Source of the DNA: Spirochaetaceae bacterium
GTDB lineage: Bacteria > Spirochaetota > Spirochaetia > DSM-27196 > SKKC01
Assembly (NCBI GenBank): GCA_007694005.1
Contig: RECN01000060.1
Coordinates: forward strand, 1-39,014
DNA length: 39,014 nucleotides
Direction: 5' to 3'
The notes under the pieces are model-generated. The model did no database searches. It was not told the DNA's origin and saw nothing but the letters and a program-made list of their open reading frames with translations. Shown here one piece after another: positions 3,310 through 37,509 of the stretch. Numbering within the stretch: position 1 is the first letter of the stretch; the number at the start of each line of letters is the position of its first letter. The position numbers and the translations under genes were made by a program.

Positions 3310-6300
3310 TCAGCCTCCCTCGTTACCCGGACCGTCAAGACTCCGACGTATGTTCCTGATGCGGTCGCGCACGCGTTCAGCGAGCTGCCGCAAAGGAACA
3401 TCAGACGCGAGCCCTTCGAGGGCTCCAAACGCTGCCTGTATGCGTTCCGTCGTGAGCGGCTTCCCACCAGGCCCGACCGAGGGGCCTGGGGAGACATCCG
3501 TGTGCAATCCCTTGCGCCCCCGAAGCGCATTTTTAAGCCGTTCAACGCGAAGCGGCATCTCACTCTCGAAATAGGCGTTCGTCTTTTCAGGTGGCAGATA
3601 CTCTGCAAGACCTTCCAGATACTCGAACATGCTGGCCTGCCGTTCCTGCCAGCTTGCTTCGGTCTTCGGTGCTTCAGCCGGCGGACCGGCGGAGGCAGGC
3701 GACGAAGCGGCTGGGGCTGCTGCGTCTGCCTCGGGAGCCGCTTCGGGTTCAGATAGTGGCTCGGAAGCCGCTTCGGACGCGGGCTCAGTGGTCAGAACCG
3801 GCTCCGTCTCGGTATCCGGCGCAGGCTCAGACCAGGGAACGTCTGCGGACTGCTCTTCTTTCCCGGTTTCCTGGGGAGGTTCTTCGTCAGAAAGCTCATC
3901 CAGATCATCGAGTTCACTTATTTCATCGGTCTCGTTGATTTCTTCCAGGTCGTTGAGATCGTCGAGCTCATCGAGAACCGACGCCTCGGGCTCGGGTTCC
4001 AGCTCGGGCTCGGTGTCAGCGTCATCGAGCATAAAGTTGCCGAGTATACCTTCCTCGCCCTCATCCCCGGGCTCGTCTGAAGCGGGTTCGAGGGCGTCTT
4101 CAGACACGGCTTCGCCTTCGGGTTCAACTTCGTCTTCGGGTTCAACTGCGCCTTCGGGTTCAATTTCGTCTTCGGGGTCATCCTCGAAGGCCTGGTCGGG
4201 CGACTGCTCGGGGAAGCCCATGGACAAGTCAAGCTCCGCATCTGCGTCAGGTTCGTCGTCTTCGACCGGCAGCAGATCATCGCTTTCCGGCTCGTCAGTC
4301 GGTTCGTCCTCGAGAGGAAGCGCGTCTGCAGGCGGCTGTTCCGGCTCCGGTGGTGGCACCGGCTTTACCGGCAACTCTTCCGGCGACTGGATCGGCGGCT
4401 GTTGTGGCTGTTGCGGTGGCGGCGGAGGCGGTGGCGAGTACGACTGCTGCTGCGGTTGCGGCGGCGTGGGCGGATACGGAGTCTGAGGAAAGGGCTGCTG
4501 AGGTGGGAAAGGCTGTGGCTGCTGGGGTGGAAACGGCTGCTGGGGCGGCGGCTGGACCGGTTGCGGTGGCTGGGGGCGCTGTGAGCCGCCCTCGTCGCCG
4601 CCCCGGCGATCTCCGTAGTTCGGAAGATCGAGCAACGATGGACCCCGGTCATTTTCCCAGTTCTCATATTCTTCGATGTAGTCTACGGCTTCAGGCTCAA
4701 CCGCGGCCTCGTCCTCATCAACGTCAAAGTCATCCCCAAAATCAAGAAGAGGAATCGACTCCTCATCAAGTTCACCGAGCTCATCAACGGCCAGAGGCTG
4801 TATGCCGGGAACTTCCTCGCGCTCACCACGGGCGAGCTTGCCAAGTGTCTCAAGACTCTTCGCCCAGGCTTCTCCGTGATCCTCTTCAAATGCGGCGACG
4901 GCTTTCTCATAGAGGCTCAGGCTGTCGTTGAGTCGGCTTATATCGTCGGGCCGGGCTCGCTGCCCCTGCAGGCTGACGAGCTGATCGGCGGCGTCAATCG
5001 CCTGCTCGCGCTTTCCGAGCTGCTGATGTGCCCGGGCAATGGCAACGAGAACCCGCTCGTCGTCGGGAGCGCGTTCCTTGAGAACGCTCAGTATTTCGAG
5101 TGCCTTCGTCGGCTCACCGTCGTCAAGTTCAATCTTTGCAAGAAGCAGATCAGCCTCGATTGAGCCGGGAATCTCAGCCCGGTACATCTCAACGTAAGAC
5201 CGTGCCTTATCCGATTTCCCGAGGTCGCGGTAGATCGCTGCAAGCTCAAGCGTATACTGATGCTTCCCGTCACCTTGAGCTTCGATGAAACGGAAACACT
5301 CTTCGGCCTCGGCTGTCCGGTCGGCCTCCAGAAGCAGTCGCCCCAGCAGTTTCACCTGATCGACGTTTTCCGGTTTATGCGCGACCAGATAATCGAGATG
5401 CCTTCCAGCTTCTTCGCGCCGTTTCTGCTTCAGCAGGTGCTCGATCAGACTCAGACGAACCGTATGGTTCTCGGGATACTGTACGGACAGTTCCTGCAAC
5501 TCTTCGGACGCCGCACTTCCGTTTTCGTGGCGCTCGAGTAAGTGACTCATGTTCGAGATCGCATGATCGTAGGTTGGCCTGTTGTTCAGCGCACGTTTGT
5601 AGTATTTCAGAGCGTCGTCGTACTTACCCTGTTCAGCGAGGACGGTGGCACTGTTATTCAGGGCGGTGGCATTCGACGGCTCGAGATCCAGAATTTCAGC
5701 GAAGGTATCAAGCGAGTCATCGAAGCGGTTCAGCCGCTGATATACGATTCCGAGATTGTTGAGGGCGTCCGTCCACCCGGGTTTCTTGGTCAGACTTTCA
5801 CGGTACTCGTCCGAAGCCTCTTCGAGCTCTCCGAGGGACTCGTAAACGAGTCCGAGGTTGTAGTGCAGTTTCGGATGATTCGCGTCGACCTGCAGTCCCG
5901 CCCGGAGGGTCTTCAGGGCTTCCTTCGACTCACCGTTCTGATGCAGCAGCGTCCCGAGGTTGTTGTAGGCAAGCGCGAAACCGGGCGCAAGCTCTATCGC
6001 CTTCTCATATGCGGCCTTCGCATCATCGATGTTTCCAAGACTCTTATGAATATTGCCGAGGTTGTAGTAGACGTCGCTTCGATTGGGCCTCAGCGCGAGC
6101 GCCTCTTCGACGGACGCGAGGGCCTGTGCATACTCTCCGGTCTGTCGGTACGCAACACCAAGGTTGTTGTGAGCTTCAACGTTGTCAGGTTCAATCTCGA
6201 CCGCTTTCCGGAAACTCCGCACCGCCCGGTCGTAGCGCCCCGCCGAGCTGTGAACCGAGCCCATCAGCAGGTGCACCGCGGCTCTGCCCGGCAGTTCTCG

Positions 6301-34676: not shown

Positions 34677-34760
34677 GCCCGAGTGGCGGAATTGGTAGAC
34701 GCGCTAGGTTCAGGGTCTAGTGTCCTTACGGATGTGGAGGTTCGAGTCCTCTCTCGGGCA
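34677..34760 (+). tRNA. tRNA-Leu (anticodon CAG)
   Basis: 84 nt with a class II cloverleaf. Acceptor GCCCGAG pairs with CTCGGGC. Anticodon stem CTAGG/TCTAG with loop TTCAGGG gives CAG, for codon CUG. A long variable arm (around TGTCCTTACGGATGT) fits leucine. T arm GGAGG/CCTCT with loop TTCGAGT. The discriminator is A and CCA is not encoded. Its last 18 nt recur exactly twice downstream (see the repeat array). Confidence 0.96.
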
Positions 34761-34767
34761 AAAAAAC

Positions 34768-34792
34768 GGCGACCTTCGGGTCGCCTTTTTTT
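34768..34792 (+). terminator. Rho-independent terminator after tRNA-Leu
   Basis: A perfect 7-bp stem GGCGACC/GGTCGCC closed by a TTCG tetraloop and followed by seven T residues. It starts 8 nt after the tRNA. Confidence 0.93.
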
Positions 34793-34798
34793 CGGGGC

Positions 34799-34938
34799 CC
34801 CGGGAGAGGACTCGAAACGGAGGCACGGCGCGACCGGCAGGGAGCGCAATCCTGCACGGACGCAGGATTAGTGCCGAAGGCGGCCTGGAGGAAGGCAACA
34901 CGATGTTGCCGACCGGAAGGCGAGTCCTCTCTCGGGCA
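34799..34938 (+). ncRNA. putative structured RNA, tRNA-tail unit 1
   Basis: The closing stem pairs 34799-34814 with 34921-34936, 16 bp with one G-U; its 3' side is the tRNA-tail copy. Inside are hairpin H1 (34848-34855 with 34862-34869, 8 bp, loop ACGGAC), an outer pair GGCAC/GTGCC (34822-34826 with 34871-34875), and hairpin H2 (GGCAAC/GTTGCC within 34894-34910, loop ACGAT). Ten nt separate H2 from the tail copy. A terminator follows at 34952. Expression is not shown; the call rests on structure shared with unit 2. Confidence 0.55.
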
Positions 34939-34951
34939 CAAAAACAGATAG

Positions 34952-34977
34952 AGCAGCTCGCAAGAGCTGCTTTTTTT
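34952..34977 (+). terminator. Rho-independent terminator after tRNA-tail copy 2
   Basis: An 8-bp stem AGCAGCTC/GAGCTGCT with a GCAA loop, followed by a run of T. Its position relative to the tail copy parallels the terminator after the tRNA, although its stem sequence is unrelated. Confidence 0.9.
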
Positions 34978-34984
34978 GTGTCCG

Positions 34985-35120
34985 GAGAGGACTCGAAACG
35001 GAGTGAGCGCCGAGCGATAGCGAGGATGAGCGGCCAGGGATGGCCGCGGAAGCGAATGTAGGCGGGTCGGAATGAGCCGACACTATGTCGGCGAATGGAG
35101 ACCGAGTCCTCTCTCGGGCA
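34985..35120 (+). ncRNA. putative structured RNA, tRNA-tail unit 2
   Basis: The closing stem pairs 34985-34995 with 35103-35113 (11 bp). Hairpin H1' is GCGGCC/GGCCGC within 35030-35047 with loop AGGGAT; hairpin H2' is GCCGAC/GTCGGC within 35076-35092 with loop ACTAT. As in unit 1, exactly 10 nt separate H2' from the tail copy. Stem sequences differ from unit 1 but stay fully paired. No terminator follows this last copy. Confidence 0.55.
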
Positions 35121-36431: not shown

Positions 36432-37509
36432 TTACGATGAACCCGGCTCGGCGCCTAACTGGAGCGAATCAGCTGGGCTGACGACACCAAGCTTGTTCCG
36501 CCTGGAAACGTGGGTATAGATCATTGTCGTGGAAACGTCGTGATGGCCAAGTAGTTCCTGCACCGTTCTGATATCGTACCCGGCCTCGACGAGGTGGGTG
36601 GCGAAGCTATGTCTGAGCGAATGTAAGTGCGCATCGAGCCTGGTTCCCGTTTCTCGACATGCAGATTTGAAGGCCTTCTGTAATGAACTCGAGTAAACAT
36701 GATGCCGCCGAGCGATTCCGGACCGTGGATCAACGGATTCTCGCGGTGCCGGAAACACCCAGAACCATCCAAGCTCCGTATGTGCGCTCGGATACTTGTT
36801 CTCAAGTGCGTCGGGCAGCGCCACCCCGGGCCGTCTTGCCAGCCGGTCGCGTGCATACATGGTCCTTGAGCAACGGTACGCACTCCCCTGATATTACGGT
36901 ATATCGGTCTTTGTTTCCCTTTCCCTGCCGCACGGTAAGCACCCGTTTGGCGAGATCGACATCTTTGTGACGAAGCGTCAGACATTCGTTCAGTCGTATT
37001 CCGCTCCCGTACATAAGCGCGTTAAACGCCTGATTCTGTGTAGCGACAGCGACATTCCTTTCATTTGCGAGCCAGGTCAGAAAGTCCTTCACGTGCTCAG
37101 ACGTGCAATCCTCTGGACAAACTTGTGAGAAGCGCCGTCTGAATCGGTGAATCCAATAGAGATACGTTTTCTCAGTCTGAAACGATTTTCCCTGTCGGCG
37201 GATCTCACGACGGACGCGGTCTATTACCGTCACCCACGAACGACGCTCGGGCACTTCGATATTGGTGGATCCACGTTGGAGAAAGGTGTGATAGAGTTGG
37301 ACCGATTTTGCCGCCTGCGATACGCGCCACGGTTCAACCCGATCCGTGAGGCGTGTGTAGTACTCCTGACAGGACTTGTCCCACTCCCCGAACGAGTTGA
37401 GGCCCTGAACAAACTCCGCGACCCACCTGAGCATCCACGGCACTACCTTCGGTTCGAAATTTTGGTCTATAAGATACTCCGTAAACTCCTGGCGATCTGA
37501 AAAATCCAT
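36432..37509 (-). pseudogene. intI: integron integrase IntI-type tyrosine recombinase, degenerate
   Basis: Reading left from ATG 37509 (GGAGG 8 nt upstream): an 85-residue N-terminal extension, then a SAM-like core-binding domain (TEKTYLYWIHRFRRRF ... TQNQAFNAL), then directly MYGSGIRLNECLTLR. In IntI proteins about 50 residues lie between those two parts, so there is an in-frame internal deletion. After ...PLLKDHV (near 36858) the frame shifts. The second frame (36860 to 36432) carries [20 protein letters not shown], the extra helix unique to IntI, and the catalytic [17 protein letters not shown] and TMIYTHV. Two lesions make function unlikely. It is transcribed toward the cassette, unlike ordinary integrons. 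Confidence 0.85.

Follow-up and report, generated by a model that had tools for sequence, protein, structure and literature searches.

Tandem repeats of 178 bp are found behind the tRNA genes of the tyrT and tyrV loci of Escherichia coli (RtT, Rfam RF00391, rttR). Each of these units starts with an inverted copy and ends with an exact direct copy of the tRNA 3′-end (GGGGAAGGAT with ATCCTTCCCC). To our knowledge, there is no accepted explanation for the tyrT repeats. According to PMC4986893, the E. coli RtT units yield RNA (citing Bosl and Kersten 1991), and RtT RNAs were reported to be expressed in Actinobacillus pleuropneumoniae. Besides these repeats, mobile elements are known that enter tRNA genes at the same position, as a crossover in the T-loop has been documented for the tRNA integrase of phage Ms6 (PMC1762012).

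Here, we analysed a stretch of 39,014 nucleotides, hereafter termed the window, which represents contig C200 of a 3.9-Mb genome (G000) of a Spirochaetaceae bacterium. An earlier note on this DNA had pointed out that the last 18 nucleotides of a tRNA-Leu gene are found there in exact repeats with spacings of 178 and 182 bp, and had proposed units consisting of an antisense arm, a core, a tail copy and, after the first two tails, a terminator. All of these parts could be located on the forward strand. The host gene tRNA-Leu(CAG), identified by ARAGORN and the Rfam tRNA model, extends from 34677 to 34760, and its last 18 nucleotides (C56 to N73, CGAGTCCTCTCTCGGGCA, positions 34743-34760) represent the model for both ends of the units. 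The tRNA is separated from unit 1 by terminator 1 (34761-34792; six A residues, a GC hairpin and seven T residues). Unit 1 comprises arm 1 (34799-34816), an inverted copy that is complementary to positions 34741-34758 at 17 of 18 nucleotides, core 1 of subtype A (34817-34920), and the exact 18-nucleotide tail copy 1 (34921-34938). A second terminator (34940-34977), likewise a hairpin with a run of T residues, connects tail copy 1 to unit 2, which is composed of arm 2 (34982-34997), core 2 of subtype B (34998-35102), and tail copy 2 (35103-35120), again identical to the last 18 nucleotides of the tRNA. The arms and tail copies were delineated by direct and inverted repeats, arm 2 also by its fold, the terminators by sequence, and both cores by fold, alignment and covariation. 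The occurrence of the exact 18-mer twice more within 400 nucleotides is far beyond chance.

In core 1, the helix P2 is formed by GGCGCGAC and GGGAGCGC together with a hairpin, and the stem of the last hairpin, P3, by positions 34894-34899 with 34905-34910. Likewise, P2 of core 2 consists of GAGCGCCGAGCG and AGCGAGGATGAGC plus a hairpin, and its P3 stem pairs 35076-35081 with 35087-35092. In line with the earlier note, the stems GGCAAC/GTTGCC and GCCGAC/GTCGGC of the two units end exactly 10 nucleotides before the tail copy and are distinguished by two compensated pairs. Both units folded much better than their dinucleotide shuffles, with z values of -6.84 for unit 1 and -6.08 for unit 2. The two cores represent different subtypes, A followed by B, which have P3 and the plan of arm and tail in common. 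As the cores belong to two subtypes, the array is no simple tandem duplication. An integron-integrase-like gene is located near the array on the reverse strand (36432-37509); TIGR02249 matches it in two frames, and it is broken by a frameshift and stops. An unbroken relative of this gene lies beside the same tRNA-Leu locus in another genome (G002).

The window units are members of a structured family that is spread over the class Spirochaetia. When 40 relatives were searched at the DNA level, many gave matches resembling the units, frequently at several loci. Of 246 Spirochaetota genomes, at least 36 were matched by a covariance model built from 11 type-B units (R2), and a single genome gave as many as 13 matches; the stricter filters used in this search make the result a lower bound. 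All R2-positive Spirochaetota genomes belong to the class of the window. Moreover, a scan of about 85,000 species genomes for the pattern of the last hairpin P3 yielded 110 stretches, and among the 80 of these that were listed nearly all are titled spirochaetes. The exceptions among the listed stretches are a verrucomicrobial match (L186), a Planctomycetota metagenome-assembled genome (L242), and two units in one unclassified bin (L224 and L246). We dismissed the verrucomicrobial match as a chance hit, as there is no tRNA at this position. The Planctomycetota-labelled contig harbours a genuine unit (3783-3918) behind tRNA-Leu(TAA), reflecting either horizontal transfer or a misbinned contig. 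With the family almost wholly confined to spirochaetes, the host of the window is very probably a spirochaete, as the earlier note had supposed.

The covariance models contain no tRNA information as such. A tRNA on the same strand was called upstream of 124 of the 136 units, comprising 26 anticodon kinds, and the first unit usually starts 15-65 nucleotides behind it. For the remaining 12 units, the preceding tRNA is truncated by the end of the contig or is represented by a 3′-remnant of the gene, L133 being preceded by a degenerate remnant only. Likewise, among the stretches listed from the P3 scan, a tRNA was found within 350 nucleotides upstream in 63 of 80, with at least 28 anticodon kinds. 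At five loci (L065, L076, L118, L144 and L152) the units follow 3′-parts of tRNAs without the 5′-half, and several of these parts start near the anticodon loop, resembling the leavings of islands that integrate there. The P3 pattern was present in none of the viral contigs; a looser P2 pattern occurred in 41, none of which was confirmed by model R3, and no plasmid match was obtained. No Rfam family matches the units at gathering or relaxed thresholds, and our literature searches returned no description of tRNA-tail-matched units in spirochaetes. Hence, the family is real, far wider than the earlier note had stated, and undescribed as far as the literature was searched; both the homologous units behind other tRNAs in related genomes and the excess of compensatory changes that the note had called for are present.

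Each unit is composed of an inverted copy of the tail of its host tRNA, a core of approximately 105 nucleotides, and a direct tail copy that starts at C56/R57 in the T-loop and runs to N73. When the tails were compared with C56-N73 of their own tRNA, 59 of 95 were exact and 73 of 95 matched at 16 or more of 18 positions; with tails taken from tRNAs of other amino acids, this value was attained in only one of 7,692 comparisons. The arm mainly matches the stretch from C56 to about position 66, although a full 18-nucleotide inverted copy is possible, as observed for L169. In this unit as well as in L143, the own tail copy has decayed and the arm still matches the tRNA. Thus, the ends of the units follow the host tRNA. 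The cores do not: cores residing at different tRNAs are 84-91% identical, and the likeness ends at arm and tail. Such pairs were found between L143 and L169 (Asn/Gln) and between L047 and L071 (Leu/Pro), and within one genome between L122 and L124 (Leu/Met) and between L116 and L120 (Arg/Trp). In 26 cases, the most closely related unit of all was located in the same genome, behind another tRNA. With the likeness across tRNAs confined to the core and both ends matched to the respective host, the cores apparently changed their host tRNA and were given matching ends each time, as judged from the sequence comparison. Insertion may have brought about this change of host, as may conversion between sites that were already occupied; both fit this evidence.

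The arrangement of the arrays shows a polarity. In all 22 arrays inspected, the tail proximal to the tRNA was at least as well preserved as the most distal one; it was better in 12 and worse in none. Comparison of the window genome with G001, a genome of the same genus, revealed that the single unit and terminator at the same tRNA-Leu(CAG) in G001 have their counterpart in unit 2 and the terminator belonging to it: core 2 is orthologous to the G001 unit, and terminator 2, which differs from terminator 1, has its ortholog in the G001 terminator located directly behind the tRNA. In the window genome, unit 1 and another terminator are placed between the tRNA and unit 2. The same relation, an extra proximal unit, was observed for G017 and G029 and, less completely, at tRNA-Gly(TCC) of G243 and G145. 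The extra units in these three comparisons suggest insertion next to the tRNA. Growth at the tRNA-proximal end may likewise explain the array data, a fit that does not by itself establish insertion, and erosion of the distal end by other events could also have generated the polarity. An unusual array was found behind tRNA-Pro(CGG) of G007 (L055, 724-2010), where two unit types alternate and extra GC-rich spacers follow each shortened tail, resulting in a higher-order repeat of about 460 bp.

The presence of the units is patchy. Different genomes carry units at different sets of tRNAs. In Treponema-like relatives, where tRNA-Ser(CGA) and tRNA-Ser(GGA) form a syntenic pair, units are present at this pair in three genomes and absent in eight, the gap between the two tRNAs measuring 261-579 nucleotides with units and 31-165 nucleotides without. 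A clean empty site was sought in Treponema; syntenic empty loci were found, with flanks too diverged for an insertion footprint. These data bear on the possibility that the units are old residents that were established at each tRNA early in the history of the class and were often lost, with cores homogenised by conversion between loci and with arm and tail preserved through conversion with the neighbouring tRNA and through repair templated on the inverted repeat; no movement and perhaps no function would then be involved. In agreement with this explanation, units are found repeatedly at the same tRNAs within an order (Leu-CAG, Leu-GAG, Met and Pro), conversion tracts would stop where arms and tails differ, as is observed, and the DNA-level pairing described below is compatible with inverted-repeat correction. 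However, the patchiness would demand massive parallel loss, and neither the extra tRNA-adjacent units with their own terminators nor the origin of arm and tail at 26 or more tRNA kinds would be explained. We therefore consider long residence without movement improbable.

P1, formed by arm and tail, together with P2 and P3 is modelled as a three-way junction. Covariation supports these helices: among 18 A units, both sides of a pair had changed in 152 cells, compared with 51 +/- 6 in shuffles; the corresponding values for 11 B units were 73 and 21 +/- 4. These two alignments were built by sequence, and their structures were derived from the same alignments. For 131 distinct units, we counted 1,415 such cells versus 437 +/- 28 in shuffles, in an alignment that was fitted to the structure and is thus biased towards it. 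Sliding of the pairing partners abolished the signal. On the strand of the tRNA, the units display purine-rich loops and conserved G-A internal loops. The loop motif CAGGATG, reminiscent of CsrA-type sites, was considered and dropped, as CACGATG is at least as common.

Selection at the level of RNA accepts G-U pairs and rejects A-C. In a DNA palindrome, a G-T on one strand is an A-C on the other, so that similar rates of both are expected. In P2 and P3, G-U accounts for 1.7% and A-C for 1.0% of the cells, whereas G-U amounts to 8.3% in the tRNA stems of the same loci and to 8.0% (with 0.3% A-C) in the terminators between tRNA and unit; both controls, i.e. stems called by ARAGORN and terminators chosen by pairing, forbid or disfavour A-C. 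The scarcity of G-U along with a similar rate of A-C is our main reason for preferring a DNA element over an RNA, and the helices seem to be maintained as DNA, either folded or palindromic, and not solely as RNA.

This result has to be weighed against the possibility that the units specify a functional small RNA of the RtT type, which would be transcribed by read-through together with the tRNA, released by tRNA processing, and folded into the three-way junction, serving as a regulator or as a decoy for the enzymes that process tRNA 3′-ends. Tail and arm would match simply because together they form P1. Consistently, the units always lie on the tRNA strand, their covariation is strong, the purine-rich and G-A loops are found on that same strand, and the tyrT units of E. 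coli are organised in the same way; the reported expression of RtT RNAs (PMC4986893) keeps an RNA product among the candidates. In addition to the few G-U pairs and the nearly as frequent A-C mismatches, however, several observations are at odds with it: the set of unit-bearing tRNAs varies by genome and syntenic loci lack units; tails and whole distal units decay; in L169 and L143 P1 is not restored upon decay of the tail, the arm instead continuing to match the tRNA; and a matching P1 does not require an exact 18-nucleotide copy of the tRNA end. On balance, we regard a functional small RNA of this type as rather unlikely. Of the RNA repeat family proposed in the earlier note, the repeat family thus stands, and its RNA nature became doubtful because of the rare G-U pairs with A-C nearly as common, the core swaps, the polarity of the arrays and the patchy presence at syntenic loci. 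These observations suggest a DNA element whose insertion takes place beside tRNA genes, possibly with a transcript.

In the explanation that we favour, and to which we give about half of our confidence, the units are small, non-autonomous DNA elements, each residing at the T-loop end of its tRNA gene. One strand would fold into the three-way junction, with P1 representing a double-stranded copy of part of the T-arm of the tRNA. A tyrosine recombinase provided in trans could insert the unit at position 56/57, or templated fold-back synthesis could generate it at the end of the tRNA; the tRNA would stay intact in both cases. Were a unit to move to another tRNA, its arm and tail would be copied from the new host. 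Fold-back synthesis is suggested by the unit L048 at tRNA-Leu of G001, because its arm, the terminator and the tRNA tail form one continuous palindrome. The same unit contains an additional inserted hairpin (GGTCGAGCAGCAACTTTTTAGTTGCGACC) in the P2 hairpin. We infer that units may move between tRNA genes; gene conversion between occupied sites without insertion could also account for the exchange of cores. Our search for an enzyme, a circle or a clean empty site of the units returned none, and no neighbouring gene recurs in their vicinity. Integron integrases are present in 20 of 37 unit-bearing genomes and in 5 of 17 genomes without units; this co-occurrence is not strict, and the integron integrase is not favoured as the mover.

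The T-loop position of the tail copies would also be compatible with scars of genomic islands or phages that had integrated into tRNA genes, the tail copies corresponding to attR sites and the remainder to leftover DNA. The T-loop is a known crossover site (PMC1762012), several units follow 3′-halves of tRNAs that are truncated close to the anticodon loop, and at a few loci integrase-like reading frames were seen by eye soon after the last tail. Yet, a covarying core with an inverted tail copy at 26 tRNA kinds is not expected from such scars, and neither an integrase nor any other gene is recurrent beside the units. The island-scar explanation is therefore disfavoured and, in our estimation, very improbable. 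By eye, reading frames resembling the N-terminus of phage integrases were observed to start some hundreds of bases downstream of the last tail at L056, L069 and L072.

Taken together, we favour a DNA element at the T-loop. Should the cores truly move, this element would take its recognition sequence from the target tRNA gene, which would constitute a new mode of targeting. Should the units instead represent an RNA, they would form a large family absent from Rfam and physically coupled to tRNA genes across a whole class of bacteria. More tentatively, and with somewhat less confidence than in the element itself, we consider that the units may form a class of mobile hairpin DNA in which the direct and the inverted end are rebuilt from the tRNA gene that has been entered; such DNA would accrete at the T-loop end and would be present throughout the Spirochaetia and, as RtT and in the argVYZQ spacers, in E. 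coli.

Several known systems share features with the units. Like integron cassettes and their attC sites, they consist of folded palindromic DNA, their arrays seem to grow at one fixed end, and a broken integrase of the integron type lies near the window array. In contrast to cassettes, the units lack an open reading frame, would insert by the tRNA and not at attI, and show no strict link to the integrase. Moreover, none of 131 units contained both attC boxes, R′′ (RYYYAAC) and R′ (GTTRRRY), as compared with 0.12 in shuffles, and an identity as attC cassettes was rejected in the absence of the R boxes. The units resemble T-loop-targeting elements such as phage Ms6 (PMC1762012) in a direct repeat that begins in the T-loop and reaches the 3′-end of the tRNA, in the intact tRNA and in the apparent accretion next to it. 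They differ from them by a size of about 180 bp, by the lack of an encoded integrase, by the extra inverted tail copy and by a core that occurs with varied tRNA tails. With REP elements and MITEs they share being small, structured, non-coding, repeated and probably non-autonomous. However, REP and MITE ends are owned by the element, whereas the ends of the spirochaete units are set by the host tRNA: constant terminal inverted repeats of the MITE type are not found, as the inverted repeat of arm and tail tracks the host tRNA and not the core, and a REP-type GTAG in the left 40 nucleotides is present in only 9 of 131 units.

The closest counterpart is the tyrT repeat, the plan of which the earlier note had correctly recognised in the window: both kinds of units lie directly behind the tRNA, in tandem and with a similar period, carry the antisense arm and the tail copy, and P2 of the tyrT unit resembles that of spirochaete subtype B. 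P3 has no equivalent in E. coli. The Rfam RtT model (gathering threshold 45 bits), which matched E. coli as the positive control, returned no match in the window, at seven loci searched with a relaxed E-value, or in six whole spirochaete genomes. Conversely, model R3 applied without filters to 2.5 kb of the E. coli tyrT locus placed the four units at the top (20.2 to 15.7 bits, followed by 6.6), and with default filters on 300 kb of E. coli it did not find the tyrT units. Hence, the spirochaete units are built like RtT units and fall outside the Rfam model. Three further RtT-like units were found in E. coli K-12, in the argV-argY and argZ-argQ spacers and downstream of argQ (L343, 17560-18472), with the arm GGGAGGAT or a variant of it and the tail ATCCTCCCGGATGCACCA of tRNA-Arg; the Rfam RtT model matches tyrT and none of these argVYZQ units. 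RtT has been annotated at one operon, whereas the spirochaete family resides at 26 or more tRNA kinds with ends that follow the host tRNA. Because the ends are dictated by the host and the core is not, these units bring comparative power to the question of the tyrT repeats. We regard the spirochaete units as a variant of the tyrT/RtT kind, and there is a sizeable chance that this kind itself represents a new class of tRNA-matched DNA element.
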